A stretch of 32,300 nucleotides of DNA from Bifiguratus adelaidae (taxonomy: Eukaryota; Mucoromycota; Endogonomycetes; Endogonales), in the NCBI GenBank assembly GCA_002261195.1, contig MVBO01000161.1, positions 1-32,300 of the forward strand, given 5' to 3'. A model generated the notes under the pieces. The model was not told the origin of the DNA and ran no database searches. It saw nothing but the letters and a program-made list of their open reading frames with translations. This document shows positions 12,233 through 31,635 of the stretch, in pieces (the first letter of the stretch is position 1; each line of letters begins with the position of its first letter). The position numbers and the translations under genes were made by a program.

Positions 12233-14252
12233 TCACGTAGTAGATTTTCGTGCTAACCAAAGCAATGACTTTGGATATTGCGGGCTTGCACTAGGTCGTA
12301 TACTCGCAGACTTTTGTGCCGTTGAATTAGCTTGGATTATAGGTGGATATAGCGATAGCAAGTTGGCATTGTCAGCGGCTTCTTTCTTTACCTGCAGATC
12401 CGATTTGACGGAAGTCTGAGAACTCGAGGGGGATCTTTGAGAGGTGGAGATGTGTGATTTTGTGGATGATGAGGTGAGTTTTACGCTTTCTAGCTGTGAA
12501 GTCTGGGAGGATGGATTGGCGTCCTCGAATTCATAGTTCGAGGGAGTCGTATCCAATATGTGTTGCCAATTGCTCTGATCCATAAATAAGGGCAAATGTG
12601 GAGGATCTTCTATAGTGGCACGTCCTCGGGGCGAAAGCTATAAGGAATTAGTGACCATTCTCTCCTATCCTTGGCTCACAACTCACAATTTCCGTTGCCC
12701 ATAGGAAAATTAGTGATGGTTTTAAAGGTAAATGCCACTGAAAAGTCATGAGATAGACACGCATTGGACCCTGTCAACACAAGATGCACTTACGTTCCCA
12801 TAGATCGCACAGTACTGATGATGCTCACAATTATCCAAGTAACGCTTTTCAATTTCCTCTATAGTCTCGTACAACTTGTCGACGTCCGAATCCGTGTAAA
12901 CCTAAGGCAAAAGCTGAGCATATGAGTTTGCGTCGTCCAGTTTCCATACCACTGTGTTTGCGATCTCGACCCTGGCATGATTTACGTCTCCCTTTGTCCC
13001 CTTTTTCACTGCTTCGTGGCAAAATTAGGCCAAAATCCAATATCAGAGAGATCTCAACTTACGCGATACGGTTACGAAATCAGAAAGATCGTCAATGATC
13101 TGATGTCTATTTGATGTTGGCGAGTAATTCTGTTGTTTTCTTGGTCGCAGATTCCGCCGAGCTGCCGAGCCTGGAGAGGTAGAGATTTGCACTTCTATCG
13201 GATCCGGTGAATCCTGCCTAGCTCTTTTTGAAACTTGCTCCAGTGGTGCTTCGCTGTACCGCGCGCGTTTGATCGAGGTCGCTATAGGCTCACTTGATCT
13301 AAAAGGGCTAGAACTTGGACTTTCGTCTCGTGCCGTGACAGTTTTGTTGTCCGAAGTCGCTATAGACATGGTTGGACTCACGGACTTTGGGGTTTTTTCT
13401 CGTCTGATCGGTTGTCTGAGCTTCGATTTCTCCAAGTGCACGGGAATAATAAAAGGGGTGGTTGACTTTTTGGCGACTTGAGGGAAGCCGTTCGGCTTTA
13501 GGGGCTTTGTACCAAAGGGTGTGTCGAGTCCAGGTCGCTGTGTCATTGAGCCATTGTGAGCGGAAAACTCAGGCCTCAGTAAGTCTTTGACCTTCATGGA
13601 TTGGCTTGGCGAGGTATCATTTCGAGTACGCTACTTCTGTTAGTTCACCGATCACCGGCTGACACGTTTATGGACTTACAGAGAAGAGATATTCCATGAT
13701 ATCCGGGTTGTTGTTGATATTCTGCTTCCATGTTGGACCATGGGAATGATGGGTGGAGAGAGCTGAAATGACACGGGATAGATTTTTGGCCGAGAAACGA
13801 ATATATCGCAAATATCTCAGGAGGTTGCTAGAGCTGATGGGAAAGAGTGATCCGTCCTTGTTCTTCAAGTTGAGTTCCTTTTCAGCTACCCTTTGGAAAT
13901 CCCGAAGAATGCCCACTACGTCTCTTTTCATCAAAGAGGCAAGAAGCGTCTGCGCTGGCGTATTGGCCGGTGAAGGCGGCTGTATTGGTGACGGAGCTTT
14001 TGAGGTTACGTCGGTTGCTTTTGTTGGTAACGTTAGGCTATGTACATCATTTGGCGCGGTTTTTTGTGGAGAAGGAACGCGACTGTTGGCGTAGGACTTG
14101 GGAGGATTGACTGACGAAATCGGGGATCTCTCCTTATAACCGAGATAGAGCTCTTGCGCACTGTTTTCGACAACACCGTTTTGCTTTGGCGGCTCCTCTA
14201 TTAGATCTACATACAGTACCGGGCGCAGTTGGGGAACCACATACTTTGGCAT
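12233..14252 (-). CDS. Unrecognised, probably nuclear protein (587 aa)
   Basis: Exons 14252-13680, 13630-13063, 13008-12950, 12901-12794, 12737-12687 and 12637-12233. I do not recognise the family. Two ordered regions flank disordered Ser/Pro-rich sequence. The first is helical, about residues 100-190: [20 protein letters not shown], then [20 protein letters not shown]. The second is cysteine/histidine/aromatic-rich, about residues 400-460: [50 protein letters not shown]. Basic clusters ([24 protein letters not shown]) look like nuclear localisation signals. Four small exons cover the second region, and each joint preserves phase and sense, which supports the model. The start at 14252 is 49 bp from the divergent GPI10 start. 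Function unknown. Confidence 0.72.
13009..13012 (-). other. Tandem NAGNAG splice acceptor
   Basis: Minus-strand sequence GAAGCAG offers acceptors ending at 13012 or 13009. Use of one or the other changes a junction residue pair (PV versus L) without a frameshift. Confidence 0.6.
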
Positions 14253-14301
14253 CGAAGGCTGCGCTGTTGAAAGATTGACGCGAAATTTGAGACGTGACTG
14301 T
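14253..14301. promoter_or_regulatory. 49-bp divergent start-codon spacer
   Basis: The start codons of the unrecognised protein (minus strand) and GPI10 (plus strand) are only 49 bp apart. Promoter elements and 5' UTRs must overlap each other or the opposing coding sequence. No TATA box is visible. Confidence 0.5.
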
Positions 14302-16437
14302 ATGGATCCACTCCCTGAAAAGGAGGGTTTGCGCGCTCGCCATGGAACGCAGGCGGGTAAAAGCGGTTCAAGTCAGCAACAGACAAAGGTAGAGGCACTA
14401 AAAACAGCTCCACGCGACTTTGTTCTGCCAGTGCAAGAATCGAGTCGCCAATCAACATTCTTGCTACTATTACTCCTGTTTGCGTTTCGGTGCCTGAACG
14501 CGCTGCTGGTGAGGACCTACGATGCTCCCGATGAGTATTGGCAATCTCTGGAGGTCGCTCATCGTTTGGTGTTTGGATATCCTTTTGCACACTGCCATTT
14601 GAACTGTATTCACGATATGATCCTTAACTTGATCTTCCTTTTACATATGGGCATCTGACGTGGGAATGGAAGGAGAGGATACGGAGTTACGTTCACCCAT
14701 TGATATTCGCTGCAGCTTATAAATGCCTCATGCTGCTAGGACTGGATCATGGGAGACTGATTGTAAGTATCGTCTGCTTTTAGAGTTGCATGTTCTGATC
14801 AGGGCGATTTGCGTATGCCTTATGTAGACAATTATACCCAGGCTACTGCAAGCTTGCTTTGCTGTCACGACCGATTATTTTACCATTCAACTCGCAAAAG
14901 ATACCTACAATCCATCCATTGCACCTTATGTCGTAAGTCACGGTGCCGAAATACGCTCTGGGTTGCCCAACTGAAGGTGAAATAGCTTTTCTGTACCCTG
15001 ATATCGTGGTTCAATTTTTACACATCGACTAGAACATTCTCAAACTCCATGGAGACGTCCTTGACGATAATAGCCTTGTATTACTGGCCCCGACCGGCTT
15101 CCAAGAAGAATCTGCGGACAGCATGGCGCAGGTGAGGTCTGATGTCTTTCTTGCTCACGTCTTTGCTGACTTGCTTCAAATCTGAAAGAAACTATCGGAT
15201 CTCGCTAATCTTGGCGGCCTTAGCATGTATCATTAGGCCGACCAACGTGGTGATATGGATTGCACTGCTTGCCTATACGGTAGTTGACAAGATAAATTAT
15301 CTTGCTGTGATGGTTTGGGATGCGGCAATCGTAGGGTATGCGTGCACAAAGTGGTCGTCATCACCGTTTTCTGAAGTAGTCATCCAGGACGATTGCGGTT
15401 GGTGCCATGACTATTGTTGACACATGCTTCTACACCGGGACCCTGGACGCTCTTACCACTGCGCCAGTGTTCGTACCTTGGAAATTCTTTCAACACAACG
15501 TGATCAATTCGATCTCGCTCTTCTATGGGTCTCATCCATGGCATTGGTACGTCACTCAAGGTTTGCCGACCATGCTGACGGTTTTCGTTCCATTCGTTCT
15601 TGAGGGATGGAAACGATCGTCAGCCGAGACAGGCATGCGATATCGCACTGCCGCGTTGAAGATACCTGTCTTGTGGGTCATCGGAGTCTATAGTCTGCTG
15701 TCGCACAAGGAGTTTCGCTTCGTCTATCCGATTCTGCCTCTTCTAATCATTTTCGCTTCTTACGGTTTGCAAATCACATCTCCCAAGTTGAGATCTGCCG
15801 CCGTTCTTTTGATCATTATTGTCAATGTCCCGTTGGCTTTTTATACATCAATGATACATCAACGTGGAGTTGTCGATGTTATTGATTGGCTTCGGTTTCA
15901 CATCCCGGTCACGTCAAATCACTCTGCGACTGTTGGCTTTCTCATGCCTTGCCATTCTACCCCTTGGTATGCTCAACTGCATCGATCAGATATTGACATG
16001 TGGTTCCTCACGTGTGAGCCCGATATCAGGTAAAGAGCGCACTATTTAGTACATTGGCTCTGCTCTGACCGTGCATATTTTCTTTTAGTCGTACCCAGAC
16101 ACAATATCTTGACGAAGCTGACAGGTTCTACCAAGATCCACAAGCATTCTTGGAGACATATTTCACTGATTCTAAGCTTACAAAGTCACAACAACAGGAA
16201 GGAAAGAGAGAGTGGCCAGAGTATGTTGTTCTGTTCGAATCCTTGCTCAACAAAAGTGATGCACGGGGAAATCCTCGGCAAACTCTCCTTGCACGCTATA
16301 CTGAGGTACGTATTCCACACGTATACAACAGAAATCGTGACTTACGCCGACGCTATAAGCGTACTCGGTTCTTCAACTCACATTTTCACGATGATTCGAG
16401 AAGAGAAGGCGATGTAATTGTCCTGCAAAAGAAATGA
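14302..16437 (+). CDS. GPI10: GPI mannosyltransferase III (PIG-B/Gpi10)
   Basis: Exons 14302-14576, 14645-14762, 14828-14932, 14986-15131, 15189-15335, 15388-16029, 16089-16305 and 16360-16437; 575 aa. The ALG9/PIG-B family signatures are clear: luminal [15 protein letters not shown] near the N-terminus, [10 protein letters not shown], a [14 protein letters not shown] segment, [29 protein letters not shown], and [13 protein letters not shown]. Many hydrophobic segments mark it as a multi-pass ER membrane enzyme. The family adds the third mannose of the GPI anchor precursor from dolichol-phosphate-mannose. The mucin-like GPI-type protein at 6860-7609 would be a client of this pathway. Intron 1 is a U12-type AT-AC intron; the other six are GT-AG, 52-65 nt. 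Start chosen because no other Met precedes the PDE motif. Confidence 0.94.
14577..14644 (+). other. U12-type AT-AC intron in GPI10
   Basis: The 68-nt intron begins ATATCCTTTT, an exact U12 5' splice site. It contains ATCCTTAACTT at about 14619-14629, matching the U12 branch consensus TCCTTAAC, and ends TTTTAC. It splits Gly codon GG|A and joins FG to YGHLTWEW, an invariant stretch of the PIG-B family. No GT-AG or GC-AG choice in the region gives that join. Branch adenosine to acceptor distance is about 17 nt, slightly longer than typical for U12 introns. Confidence 0.93.
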
Positions 16438-19183: not shown

Positions 19184-21836
19184 ATGGCGGCAACACCTTC
19201 TCAAGCTCTGCCCATTAGTCTCGTCATTGTTGGCCTTCTCACCATAGTGATAGCACTAGTATACTATTATGGCTCTCGCAAAAAGCATTCTTGGCTTGCG
19301 CAGTGCGTGACGCTTGTCAGCTGGTTCTTTCCCTTCGGTATTGTCTTTCTGCTACCACTGGACCTTGCATCAGTGAGTATTGACCGATGTAGCTGGTTTG
19401 TATTCATTGTTAACGCCGATGTATAGACCATGTATAACAACTGCACCGAAGCGACTTGCCGAGAGCCTTGGGCATATGTCTCGCAAGAATTTCTCTTTAT
19501 CGCTTGGCGAACGGTCTATTGGTCGACATTTTGTCTTACTTGGTGGGGCATTGGAAAGATACATTCTTGTAGTCACAAAGCTGACACCATTGTAGGGTTA
19601 TTATACCTTTCCTGCAATCTTATCTTAGTGCAGGCGGCTTTACAGTGAAAGCCAAGATTTGGTATGCGGTGCGAACGAATCTATACTTCTACGGCGTCTA
19701 CCTCGCATTAGGCATACTCGGATTAGTCTATATAGTGGCTTACAAACCCTTTGAGTCGCGGTAAGCATAGATGAAGCTTGCATTGCTTCAATCATATGGA
19801 ATCTGAATCCAACGATCTATATTTAGGGCGGCATTACAAGGCTACATCATTGCTATCGCCAATAGCTGGGGCTTGTTGCTAATCATCATCTTCATGGGAT
19901 ATGGATTGGTGGCCATACCGCGTCACTTCTGGAATCTAAGCAACATTGATCTTCAACTGGACAGATGTTATCAGAATGCGCCAAGGTTGAAGGAGGAGCT
20001 TATGGACGCCGAGGTTGAGTTGGACAGCCTATACAAGGAGTTGAGCAATGTCTCTCGCAAAGTCACCACGGCCAACCCCTTACGTCGTCACGTTAACGAC
20101 ATGCAAAGAGAATTCTTGGCCGACAAGGACTTTGAAGGGAACAGGGAGCGTCGGCTTTTCCAAGAAAATATACCGGGAATAATTGATGAAAAATATCTAT
20201 CTGAATTAAACCGGAAGCTCAAGAAGGCGGTGAGAATCACTGAAAGGCACTCAGCGTATGTCATTGAGCGGAACTTTCTATCTTCATTCATGCTTACATT
20301 TGCAACTTAGGTTATGGCAGCGACTGCTCAACCGAGCGTTCTACTTCCAAGATATTATGAAATGTAGAACCGAGTCAAGCCGCCGTTTCGCCTCGTCATC
20401 GACAATATCGACTCGCTTTGTTCGCTGGCAGACGACTGCAGAACGCTGTGCATGGTGGTGGCATGTCCGCTTGAGACCCTTGTTTCTTCGAGCAACAAGT
20501 GTTGTATGTGCAATTATCAGTTTGCTGCTAATTTGGTCAGAGGTTACATTCAACGTCAAAAGTCCAATTCTCTCTATCGTCGGCATAAGTCTTCGTTCCA
20601 TTGGTCAACATTATGGTATCGCAGAGGTTAGTAACATTATTGCGCGCCTCCTTGTGTTGACATGTTGCATCCTATAGCTTATTGCATTCGTCACTCTTGG
20701 ATACATGTCCGTCTGTGCCTACAGCTCCCTTCTCAAGGTCAAAGTCTTCAATCTATATCTTTTGGTGCCGAACCATCACACAGACGAGCTTTCCATGCTC
20801 TGGTTTGGCGGGTATCTCTGTCGACTGATGTAAGTCCATATGCAATACGTGTGCAGCAGCGTAACACACGCACCCAGGGCTCCGCTGTGTTATAATTTCC
20901 TCAATCTGGCCGCGGATCAAAAGAGTTCTGGAGATACCGTATTCTCCACGGTAGGGAGGAAGCCGATCCTGCGTACGCTCGCTAATGCATTTATTCCTGC
21001 CAGTTTATGGGCAAATCGGACTTGGTTCCATTTCTTGGAACAGCGTTTGTAGATTGGTCACCGGTTCTTTTGCTACTGCCAGTCGCAGCAGCTGTCTTCA
21101 ATTTACAGAAGCGTATTGTAAGGATATGCGGATTTGACGATTACGTGGCCGATGACGACGATGATTTCATAACACGCCCAAGCGATGTGGAGGACGGACA
21201 TGCGCCGTCTCGGAGTGCCCTGAATGCCGAGTTGGCCGAGGGCAGATCGATAATACAGCAAGGTAAGACTATTTTCATCATTTGGATCACCACCCTTAAG
21301 CGTAATACAGAGCGTGCGGCGCAAGAACGGCGACCAGCATCAAGTACGCGGCCTAGTAGGACTGCAATTGGGAACGGTGACCGAAATGTAGGTGAAAATA
21401 AGAATTAAATGAACGTTGAGGTATTTTACTTACATGGCAACAGAGAACCGATGGGCTCGATCAGCTGGATCATAGTTTGTCCCCCGTCCAAGGGGATTCA
21501 AGGCGTCCAGGAAGCTATTCTCCATCTGTTGCTGACAGCGAAGAAGAGCTTGATCTCCGTGGCCCAAGCGCTCAGGGCACACGGCATGCTGTAACTGATG
21601 CCTACCATGACAGCAGCGATGAAGACGATACCTTTGATGATAGCGCTTTCCTACGCCTGGCGGATCGTAGCAGGAAAGACGCCTCTGAACGATCAGAGCC
21701 TGGTCGAAGAAGAGGACGACGGTTAGGTCCAGTTGCTCAGCAAAATTCCTCCAATATCTCAGAGGCGCCAAGTAATCCTGGGCGTGAACGTTCGCCTTCG
21801 CCAAATCCATTCTACCGACCTCCTAATCACGTATAG
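19184..21836 (+). CDS. LMBR1-domain multi-pass membrane protein (LMBRD2-like)
   Basis: Exons 19184-19372, 19427-19542, 19596-19760, 19827-20255, 20311-20626, 20678-20829, 20878-20950, 21004-21262, 21311-21387 and 21444-21836; 722 aa. Hydrophobic N-terminal helices, FIAWRTVYWSTFCLTWVIIP and FLQSYLSAGGFTVKAKIWYA are followed by a charged helical loop (about residues 190-300). Then come QRLLNRAFYFQDI, further membrane segments, and the diagnostic KVFNLYLLVPNHHTDELSML and MGKSDLVPFLGTAF. The tail is acidic and Ser-rich, probably cytosolic. In animals LMBRD2 has been linked to GPCR signalling; the fungal role is unknown. The start at 19184 is the first in-frame ATG, 62 nt after the uL4m stop. Confidence 0.9.
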
Positions 21837-27389: not shown

Positions 27390-30300
27390 ATGACAGACGT
27401 GGACGGTAAGTCACGGACGGGTTTTTTGTAATGAGCAACCGGGAACTTTTGAGCGCTTGCTTGAGCTCCGGGACGGGCATGCGTGCCTTTTTCAATTGCC
27501 TTCTGTCACCTATTCCTTCATTTCGGGCTCTTGCTAATTCCTTTTACCCTTTGCTATTCTGCAGAGGTTCATCCAGGTCGTGGTCACGATCGGGCCGTGC
27601 ATTTCGATCCAGGCTTTTCATTTCCGTCGCCTTCTCCGAATGAAAAAGAGGCCGGTCAAAGTGACATGCATCCGGACAATAAGGCAGACGCGCAATCTTT
27701 AAGCAACAGCGAAAAAGTAAATCTACTTGCCATCGACACGGCATCTACACTCCATCATCCGACATCGCCAAATTTGCCATCATCACAAGACTACTTCTCC
27801 CCTCGACCATCGTTGTCCATACCGAGATCCGAACAAGATGAGTTGGAACCCACGTTAATGAATGAGCAGCCGCAAGGTTTGCTACGCATTCGTGAAGGCA
27901 CCTCACTCAGCAGCACGGCCGAACCGAACCCTGGTGGAAGGAGGCCCAGCAAGGATGGTGTGAGCAACGAGACCGGGGGACAACCCGCGCCACATGACGA
28001 CGTTCAACATACCGATGACATTGCACGGTTTTCCGCCGAATCCCTACACAGTTTCAGTTTCTCATCTACCTACATACCGGCAAATGATATCAACCTGCAG
28101 GAGACACGGCGGAATGTTATATCACGTAGTATTGACTTTATGCGATCTCGATTCAAAGGATGGAAGGCAGCGGATGTTCATCGTAGTAGCTATGTGGGTG
28201 GTGCAAGTCAAACAAGTTCAGCGGATCTGGCGAGCATGCCTTCCTCTCCGACTCATAATGCCTGGGCTAGAATGGTGGCCATGGAGCGCTATGGTTGGCC
28301 AAAGAATTGGAGCGCCCAAAACACCCCGAGAAACAGTTTTGAGAAAGGTGATGGGTCAAGTCTAGATTCTACGACAGAGAACGCAACAGGCGGTGAGAAT
28401 GCGCAAGACTCGGAAAACCGCACTTTGGACGACAATGAGCAAAACACTAATGAGATATCGCCTCCGGATATCGAACCAGATGCAACTGTGACGAGCGTCC
28501 CGCGTCGTATACATTTGCGAAATCAACGTTCGCGTAGTGCAATTCCCAAATTTGGTACGTCTCGCACACGTCGACAGCATATACCACCCCCTCTACAATT
28601 CACTCCATCTCAATCAACCCCTACCACAACCTTTGATGATGACACGCACAGGTTTTCTGCTGGTGTCATGCGAAGTGGCAGCACGGCCCTATCTCAACCC
28701 GGATCTGCAACACAAATAGATTTTCCTTCTGATCTCCATACAAACACAGGGGAGTCCTGTCGAAGAAGCTTGATCGAATCCAGCGTGCGACAGGATACTT
28801 CTCAGACAGGTTTTGGTCGAGAAGTCTCCGAATCACCTGTACGGATACAGCACGGTGTACCAGCACATGTGCACGCGTCCACACGCTTTCTTCCCCAAAA
28901 CCAGGCTCTGTTGGCGACAGATGCCAAACTACAGATCAAACTGGCCAACGATGTTGCTAGCTTGGTCTTTGGATATGCTAATCGCGAGCTACTGGGCGCG
29001 GACTGCACCATGCTCGTCGCTGAGGAATGCCGTCAAAAAACACGCGATATCATCCAGCGGAGGCTGGATGAGGTAAAATACTCCCACATGTCACCGGAGC
29101 AGCTTTCTCGAGGCGCTGTTTTGGTGTGCGGAAAAGTCATTCCGATCGTTCGCTGCGACGGTAGCAAAGGAGCGGCATCTCTGTGGCTCAAAGACCGGAC
29201 CGATGATAGTGGAAACCACGTCTTTACCTGGATATTTGAAGAGATTGCCGAATTCTTGGTTCGTCTCGCTGTTACTCCTTCCGGCACTATTCAATATATC
29301 GATGCGACGGTGAAGGATCTTTGGGGATATAGTGTTGAACAGGTCAAAGGCGAGAACATTGAGATGTTAGTTCCTGGCTTGGGTAAGACTCGCATGGCCG
29401 ACAGCGGATTCGCCGAACTCAGTGGCCTGGATGATGACGATGAAAAGCCCGAGGTCTCCGTCTCGCCGAGTGGTTGGATGCAAGTAGGAGGGTTCTCAAA
29501 AATTGGAGCGAGCGGAGTCACACCTGGCACACCTGGCACGCCAGATTTTGACGACGCGGTCATGGTCAAGAAAGTAACCACTCGAATGTGGGATTTTGAT
29601 GGTAATGACAAGATTCAAGACAAGCGACCGCTCAGCGTCACTGAAATCAATCGTCTGAAATTCTTTGCTGGACGAACAAGGAAAGGTGCTTACTTTCCGG
29701 TCATTGTCAAGATCAATCCTGGATCGGAAGCGTCCATTTCAGCTATGACTGGTCAAACGTCTTCAGATAAGGGTGGAGCAAAACCACTTATCGTCAAAAT
29801 CATTTCCATACCCACCATCGCCGGTCTTGTCACCATTCACAACTCTGGCCTCATCCAATCTTGCAACATTGTATTTGCCAAATATCTGTTTGGGTATAAT
29901 CCGTCCGATCTTGCTGAAAAGAAGTATATTAGCGAACTTCTGCCTCAGTGGTCAGTGTTGATCCGAACGCTAAGGCAAGATCCCGCGCTTGGTCAAGGAA
30001 ACATCATCAATGATGACACCTGTCGGCAGGCGTTGGCGATTGGTCTAGCGGCTGAACGAAATCCACCTGCCTTGAGCTCTGCTGGACGAGAATATGGAGT
30101 TGCACGGTTCGGCAAAGCGTCACCGCCAGCACAAGAAGACGAAATATTCCATCTGTCTCCAGATTTTGGCAGCCCACAGACGAAATCACCTGATAATTCC
30201 AACGCCAGCTCCGTCGTGAGCACACCCGATCTCTGCATATCTGCGGATCATGCGGCTATCATTGCTATCCATCGCGATGGAACCGAGATAGAAGTGCAAT

Positions 30301-31635
30301 TGCAGTTGCGTAAGGTCGAAAGTGCCGAAGAAGATTTGGTCGCCTTGTGGATCACTTTTGATCGGGCGGCAGTATTTGCGAAATACGGTCAACGTGATGC
30401 AGGCAATGAGGTGATCATGTCACCGTCTCGTGTTGCCTCCTCGGGCAACCTTACGCACATGCAACGGCGGTCCCCAGGGTTTGCAAAATTCTCAGTCTTT
30501 GGAGCTGCAAACAAACAAGAGAACGACGATGAGATTGCAAACGAGATTGCAGCTCCTGTAGCTCAAAAGCAAGCCAACATCGACGGCACACGTGCTTTAT
30601 TAGGCTCTGTATCGAAGCATATCGTTCCCGTTACCCCTCCCTTGTCGTCGACGCCCCCGGTCTCGATGCGAAATTACTCTGCACTTACGAATTCCCGAAG
30701 TCTCGATGATTACATCATCCTGGAAAGTCTTGGACAAGGAGCCTATGGTGTTGTTAAGCTTGCCTACCACAAAGATGACCCGTCGCAGGTATGTTTACCC
30801 TTGCGTTGATCTGCTGGTCACCGCTCATACATTGTCATTAGACCAAAGTGGTCATCAAATACATCATCAAGTCAAGAATCCTCGTTGATTGCTGGACACG
30901 AGATCGATATCTTGGATTGATTCCGCTCGAAATTCACATTTTGCATACACTTCGGAGAATCCCTCATCCCAACATTGTCACCATGAGTAAGTTGACTTGC
31001 GTCGTGCCCACAAGATGACTAATGGTATGTATTAGATGATTATTTTGAGGATGAGGATCATTACTATGTCGAAATGAACCTGCACGGCAATGGCATGGAT
31101 CTCTTTGACTATATCGAGCTCAATGAGGGGATGTCTGAGCGCGAAATCAAGCACATGTTTCGACAAATTGCGTCTGCCGTTCAGCATCTTCACAAGAACG
31201 GTATCGTGCATCGAGACATTAAGGATGAAAATGTGACTTTGGACGAGAAGGGCAACGCGCAACTCATCGATTTCGGAAGCGCAGCGTACCTCAAGAAAGG
31301 CAAGAAATACGACACCTTCTGCGGCACGCTCGATTATGCTGCACCTGAAGTGTTGCAGGGAAAGAAGTATGAAGGTCCTCCGCAAGATATTTGGGCACTC
31401 GGTATTCTCTTGTACACCCTTATCTACAAGGAGAATCCGTTTTACAACATTGATGAGATTATTGCTCGGGAGCTGCAGATGCCCTATGTGCTCTGTGAAG
31501 GTAAGGCGCAACAAGCGATGACGAATTTTGGCTGACGTTTAAGTGTTAGATCTTATCAAGCGTATGCTTAACCGTGATGTGGAGAAGCGGCCCAGCATCG
31601 ACCAAGTCTTGTCGCACCCATGGCTTACGGACTAG
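27390..31635 (+). CDS. PAS-domain serine/threonine kinase (PASK/Psk type)
   Basis: Exons 27390-27405, 27565-30788, 30842-30986, 31036-31500 and 31550-31635; 1311 aa (human PASK 1323, yeast Psk1 1356). Exon 1 encodes only MTDVD, before a 159-nt intron. A long disordered N-terminus is followed by PAS-like repeats at about residues 448-530 (LANDVASLVFGYANRELLGA), 571-640 (GTIQYIDATVKDLWGYSVEQ) and 755-820 (SCNIVFAKYLFGYNPSDL). The kinase domain, about 1051-1309, shows LGQGAYGVVKLA, VVIKYIIK, HRDIKDENV, IDFGSAA and GTLDYAAPEVL. PAS kinases sense metabolic state and control glycogen and translation factors; the Ugp1-type substrate known in yeast is inferred here. The activation loop lacks a typical phosphorylatable cluster, in line with PASK activity without loop phosphorylation. 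Confidence 0.94.

Follow-up and report, generated by a model that had tools for sequence, protein, structure and literature searches.

The gene for GPI mannosyltransferase III (GPI10/PIG-B) in the window (the whole stretch of 32,300 nucleotides analyzed) carries what is, to judge by its sequence, very nearly certainly a genuine U12-type AT-AC intron, in a Mucoromycotina fungus close to Endogonales. The intron and its elements are located as follows.

14577..14644, plus strand: U12-type AT-AC intron of GPI10/PIG-B, 68 nt, phase 2, splitting a Gly codon
14577..14586, plus strand: 5' splice site ATATCCTTTT, with the donor ATATCCTTT at 14577
14621..14628, plus strand: branch site TCCTTAAC
14643..14644, plus strand: 3' splice site AC, 16 nt past the branch element

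The 68 nt thus read ATATCCTTTT...TCCTTAAC...TTTTAC. The donor at 14577 agrees with the U12 5' splice site consensus RTATCCTTT, the branch site with the TCCTTRAY element expected near the 3' splice site, from which it is separated by 16 nt up to the intron end, and the termini, AT-AC or GT-AG in U12 introns, are those of the AT-AC subtype. ATAT is present at both ends of the intron, and ends shifted by up to 4 bases consequently yield an identical product; among these equivalent end points, the AT-AC placement is the only one which fits the consensus. The coordinates, donor, branch site and terminal AC given in the initial annotation are base-exact in the sequence, and the remaining introns of the gene, described there as ordinary GT-AG, are of this type in six of six cases in the 8-exon model. 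This model spans 14302-16437 (plus strand) and encodes 575 residues.

14302..14576, plus strand: GPI10 exon 1
14645..14762, plus strand: GPI10 exon 2
14763..14827, plus strand: GPI10 intron 2, ordinary GT-AG
14828..14932, plus strand: GPI10 exon 3
14933..14985, plus strand: GPI10 intron 3, ordinary GT-AG
14986..15131, plus strand: GPI10 exon 4
15132..15188, plus strand: GPI10 intron 4, ordinary GT-AG
15189..15335, plus strand: GPI10 exon 5, 3' end picked by frame, the least certain boundary of the model
15336..15387, plus strand: GPI10 intron 5, ordinary GT-AG
15388..16029, plus strand: GPI10 exon 6
16030..16088, plus strand: GPI10 intron 6, ordinary GT-AG
16089..16305, plus strand: GPI10 exon 7
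16306..16359, plus strand: GPI10 intron 7, ordinary GT-AG
16360..16437, plus strand: GPI10 exon 8 and stop codon

The six GT-AG introns measure 52-65 nt. The protein matches the Alg9-like mannosyltransferase family (Pfam PF03901) over residues 55-462 (E 1.1e-101), and several of its best 120 homologues (of 2,693) carry the name GPI mannosyltransferase 3; on both grounds the gene is identified as GPI10/PIG-B. A minus-strand frame at 13668-14372 of the window may start (MPKYVV..) near 14252; some 50 bases would then separate it from the first codon of GPI10 at 14302, a disposition corresponding to divergent, very closely spaced genes.

Joining 14576 to 14645 maintains the frame, in phase 2, across a conserved segment, and the PF03901 match spans the junction at residue 92. 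In the spliced protein a PDEYW-like motif and TWE are set at a spacing of 24 residues, the same found in 94 of the best 120 homologues (of 2,693); the search expression found no match in 22 of the 120, and 4 have other lengths. The commonest local form at the junction is VFGYGYLTWEW, present in 26 of the same 120 sequences. The claim that splicing recreates a highly conserved PIG-B segment is borne out by the spacing, less so by the exact string originally quoted, which occurs in 6 of the 120 homologues only. Junctions combining GT, GC or AT donors at 14531-14640 with AG or AC acceptors at 14601-14720 were enumerated, provided that the frame stayed open. Many alternatives are open on paper, and yet the use of a different junction (GT-AG, GC-AG or other), or retention of the intron, with a variant protein as the outcome, is very improbable: the listed alternatives all disturb the conserved segment, each of their products having residues added or missing in it, the spacing obtained with the AT-AC junction is the one prevailing among the homologues, and translation of a retained intron would end early. 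If the intron were retained, the frame that opens at 14302 would close with a stop codon at 14658, 118 residues long and not far into the mannosyltransferase domain, so the minor spliceosome should be necessary for GPI10.

The initial annotation had predicted that the genome also encodes the U11, U12, U4atac and U6atac RNAs and proteins of the minor spliceosome. Rfam family searches of the 18,628,366 bases (286 contigs) of the assembly revealed candidates for all four RNAs, each at a single locus and each covering the whole Rfam model; the four loci are on contigs C262, C22, C55 and C90. The U11 candidate scores 68.7 bits (Rfam cut-off 39), the U6atac candidate, on contig C22, 35.6 bits (cut-off 33), the U12 candidate 53.6 bits, only 0.6 over the cut-off of 53, and the U4atac candidate, on contig C55, 45.7 bits (E 9.3e-6), below the cut-off of 53. 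The U12, U6atac and U4atac searches gave no match in 14 control genomes, and the U11 search, at a looser E of 1, one sub-threshold match; as the controls are bacteria and archaea, they say little on eukaryotic false positives. With G-U pairs allowed, the U4atac candidate can form an 18-nt duplex with the U6atac candidate. Since the two loci were found separately and reside on different contigs, this duplex is the strongest argument for U4atac, the score of which is below the cut-off. The pairings with the GPI10 intron, computed by script as the former, involve 7 bp between TCCTTTT of the donor and AAAAGGG at the U11 5' end, 6 bp between TCCTTT of the donor and AAAGGA of U6atac, and 5 bp between TCCTT of the branch site and AAGGA of the U12 found in the genome. 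Of the predicted proteins, one was found, a U11/U12-25K-like protein (SNRNP25; PF18036 at C224:2065-2283, E 9.7e-11), the frame of which has the U11/U12 25 kDa protein as best match among solved structures (E 4.7e-6). CENATAC, a factor for AT-AN introns, was searched for as PF14968, and no match was detected in the genome nor in the control genomes, a result not to be taken as evidence of absence.

The elements, the restored frame and the snRNA and 25K candidates are read directly from the DNA, the splicing steps are modeled on established splicing biology. The U11/U12 di-snRNP would recognise UCCUUUU and the branch site, and U4atac/U6atac.U5 would then join; AAAGGA of U6atac would replace U11 at the donor, AAGGA of U12 would bulge the branch adenosine of UCCUUAAC, and the exons would be joined at AC. 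Excision by the ordinary U2 spliceosome has very little probability. U2-type AT-AC introns do exist, but those of sodium channel genes have G at +5 (Lin et al. 2010), whereas the GPI10 donor has C at +5 within a full U12 consensus, and is accompanied by a perfect U12 branch element and by matching snRNAs. Even less probable is that the snRNA loci, or the window itself, represent contamination from another eukaryote. The assembly is in 286 contigs and comes without a completeness figure, but GC content ranges from 0.46 to 0.50 across the 13 loci compared (snRNAs, introns, RPB2 and SNRNP25), with 0.48 in the window. The Rpb2 domain search finds just three loci, one of them intact and the others split into two pieces each, the number that a single set of three polymerases would give, and GPI10 and RPB2 both indicate early-diverging fungi.

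The U12-type reading of the GPI10 intron was placed in its taxonomic frame by means of the same two proteins. The partial RPB2 protein is 90% identical over the whole query to that of Jimgerdemannia flammicorona (Endogonales), the closest identity among the matches listed, and 84-87% identical to those of Mucorales, Calcarisporiella and Basidiobolus among the same matches. The top bit score among the matches listed belongs to a Puccinia striiformis record (80% over 63% of the query), set aside because of its lower identity and coverage. A maximum-likelihood tree was built from 34 rows, the query and 33 sequences hand-picked from the best 120 listed, Puccinia triticina being included and Puccinia striiformis left out. 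The query groups with Jimgerdemannia and Mucorales in an eight-member clade (support 99/98), its order relative to Jimgerdemannia not being fixed by the tree, and falls outside the set of nine Dikarya rows (support 100/100). An origin from Dikarya is ruled out by the RPB2 grouping with Mucorales and Jimgerdemannia. The five best listed matches of GPI10 (of 2,693) include Mucorales and Gigaspora, at 44-47% identity, and are followed by a mix including chytrids and Glomeromycota. On these protein sequences, the fungus is a member of Mucoromycotina, near Endogonales. A review puts genome size at 22-30 Mb in Umbelopsis and at 240 Mb in Jimgerdemannia, to be compared with 18.6 Mb here.

Further introns of the same kind were sought in the whole genome. 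The pattern RTATCCTTN{25,55}TCCTTAAC is matched 5 times over the 18.6 Mb and its reversed control not once, figures which rule out a chance motif; three of the five, with AT donors, are read as introns (one of them AT-AG), and two, with GT donors, sit inside Pfam domains. The looser pattern ATATCCTTN{18,48}CTTRAY has 63 matches, corresponding to 60 distinct donors, against 6 in the reversed control, most of the 63 being read, partly by eye, as coding or undecided from their frames. Seventeen of the 60 donors have ATATCCTTTT, and were read as AT-AC introns (10), AT-AG intron (1), uncertain (1), and, by eye, coding (5; L016, L024, L027, L041 and L055). The other 43 were provisionally read as non-introns from the frames, and C7:47120, one of the 60 donors, was set aside. 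In a search for longer introns L088 was accepted and L087 read as coding, L035, L089 and L090 staying outside the intron count. The accepted AT-AC introns are 11, all in frame, the one of GPI10 and ten in other genes.

L006: AT-AC intron in LSM12, a Pfam domain above cut-off spans the junction
L033: AT-AC intron in ELP4, Pfam PAXNEB above cut-off spans the junction
L049: AT-AC intron in an importin-beta-type gene, Pfam IBN_N above cut-off spans the junction
L038, C218 about 158336: AT-AC intron in FANCD2, Pfam FancD2 above cut-off spans the junction
L037, C216 about 100914: AT-AC intron in a DNA-PKcs-like gene, Pfam DNAPKcs_CC3 above cut-off spans the junction
L088, from the longer-intron search: AT-AC intron in a syntaxin-6-like gene, Pfam STX6 N-terminal domain above cut-off spans the junction
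L039: AT-AC intron in an inositol polyphosphate kinase gene, a Pfam domain starts at the junction
L050: AT-AC intron in an unnamed gene, weak TBC match (E 0.023), below cut-off
L012: AT-AC intron in a PPME1-like gene, no Pfam support across the junction
L019: AT-AC intron in an unnamed gene, no Pfam support across the junction

All 11 donors are ATATCCTTTT, the introns vary in length from 53 to 84 nt, and the distance from branch site to intron end ranges from 9 to 18 nt. A Pfam domain above cut-off spans the junction in seven of the 11 (GPI10 and six others). Going by sequence motifs, we take L012 to be PPME1-like and L049 to be IPO9. The acceptors of several of the other introns rest on frame plus presumed homology, and some of these introns, such as those in ELP4 and the DNA-PKcs-like gene, also have AG sites that would keep the frame. 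The presence of AT-AC introns in the DNA-PKcs-like and FANCD2-like genes implies that two DNA-repair genes would depend on the minor spliceosome. L009 (C263:5913-5972, minus strand) is a U12-like intron of about 81 nt, AT-AG by frame and devoid of a Pfam hit; L029 is an uncertain intron, ending in AC by frame only, again with no Pfam hit.

U12 introns with GT donors were looked for with the pattern GTATCCTTN{18,48}CCTTRAY, which has 14 matches, against 2 in the reversed control. Seven of them (L007, L008, L021, L073, L078, L079 and L080) are located inside Pfam domains above cut-off, counted on either strand, and hence are exons; the domains are those of coatomer gamma, MFS, the ATPase domain of ketoacid dehydrogenase kinase, glycoside hydrolase 52, histidine phosphatase, G6PD and RRM. 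The frame around L073 (C94 about 12213), 777 codons long, matches glycoside hydrolase family 52 (PF03512, E 3e-143), a mainly bacterial family. For L069, L071, L072, L074, L075, L076 and L077 no Pfam domain above cut-off was found in the 19 frames scanned; these matches are provisionally read, by eye, as coding. None of the seven has T after GTATCCTT, in contrast to all accepted AT donors. A stop-free frame covers all 14 GT matches, but also 59 of the 60 AT donors, GPI10 included (58 of 60 if a slightly longer stretch is considered), so that this test cannot separate introns from exons. L089 (C240:197258, plus strand) reads GTATCCTTTT...CCTTGAC...CAG, does not fall in any clear coding exon, and counts as a candidate GT-AG U12 intron; it comes from the search with longer gaps, the 5 matches of which, against 2 in the control, prove nothing alone.

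The tally of minor introns is therefore 11 AT-AC, 1 AT-AG and no supported GT-AG, in a strict-pattern sample which is not a full catalogue, obtained with patterns not identical between the two classes and with rows judged partly by eye. Assuming that AT-AC and GT-AG introns are equally common, finding no GT-AG among 11 has p = 0.0005, and finding at most one among 12 has p = 0.003. The genome appears to retain a small set of minor introns, mostly AT-AC. In the genomes of U12DB the GT-AG to AT-AC ratios range from 3:1 to 1:1 (Lin et al. 2010); the AT-AC share is about 26% in human and 77% in Blastocystis (Larue and Roy 2023). Among U12 introns, conversion to the U2 type is reported to strike the GT-AG class much more than the AT-AC class (Lin et al. 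2010). This is the mechanism proposed for the bias found here: the mostly AT-AC set would be the residue left as GT-AG U12 introns were more easily converted to ordinary introns. A tentative reading, to which we give somewhat less than an even chance, is that the minor spliceosome has been reduced to almost only AT-AC (and AT-AG) introns, through loss of the GT-AG U12 introns or their conversion into major ones. AT-AC introns would be stranded, as the major spliceosome could not readily take them over, and the genome would represent the end state predicted by the class-conversion model.

Minor introns are not new to this part of the fungal tree. According to Larue and Roy (2023), Ascomycota and Basidiomycota offer no convincing support for them, and 205 are present in Rhizophagus irregularis and 249 in Basidiobolus meristosporus. 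U12 introns, AT-AC included, were published for Rhizopus oryzae and Phycomyces blakesleeanus, two methods finding 9 or 8 AT-AC and 8 or 12 GT-AG in Phycomyces, and 1 AT-AC and 2 or 3 GT-AG in Rhizopus (Bartschat and Samuelsson 2010). The view first taken of the GPI10 intron, that fungi very seldom have AT-AC introns and that well-studied Dikarya have none, is for Dikarya in line with the survey of Larue and Roy (2023), but AT-AC introns are on record in Mucoromycotina, where this fungus belongs, and the GPI10 intron is accordingly less surprising. Phycomyces and Rhizopus share with it the subphylum, the intron class and the presence of AT-AC members, but both have GT-AG U12 introns, whereas here 11 AT-AC and no supported GT-AG introns were found. 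Rhizophagus and Basidiobolus likewise belong to lineages that diverged early among fungi, and the former has the full set of four minor snRNAs, but their 205 and 249 minor introns compare with about a dozen here, detected by strict patterns only. The AT-AC subtype is dominant also in Blastocystis (196 of 253, 77%; Larue and Roy 2023), which is however a stramenopile, and its minor introns, numbering in the hundreds, are very short (median 39 bp, vs. 53-84 nt for the AT-AC introns accepted here). The GPI10 intron and the machinery fit what is known of related fungi, except for an apparent prevalence of the rarer AT-AC subtype. The main text of Larue and Roy (2023) makes no mention of Endogon-, Bifiguratus or Mucoromycota; among the papers listed by literature searches none deals, by its title or abstract, with minor introns of Endogonales, and no paper was found in which PIGB is mentioned together with 'U12-type intron'. 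The intron itself is of an already known kind; the composition of the set may be new.

Fungi are a main test case for the persistence versus the disappearance of minor introns. A compact Mucoromycotina genome of 18.6 Mb, with candidates for all four minor snRNAs and around twelve minor introns detected so far, makes a small model, in which every gene with a minor intron could be listed and tested. If nearly all of these introns are AT-AC, this would support the idea that GT-AG U12 introns slip over into the major class, which AT-AC introns rarely do (Burge et al., cited in Lin et al. 2010), and it could be asked which proteins of the minor spliceosome an AT-AC-only system still needs.

Other genes were noticed in the window. 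The region 19807-20310 (plus strand) holds an exon of an LMBR1-like membrane protein (PF04791, E 1.4e-27). Further on, an open frame of 1,114 codons at 27465-30809 (plus strand) features a PAS domain, and is continued by exons near 31023-31535 which resemble a protein kinase by eye; frame and continuation probably make up a PAS kinase gene.
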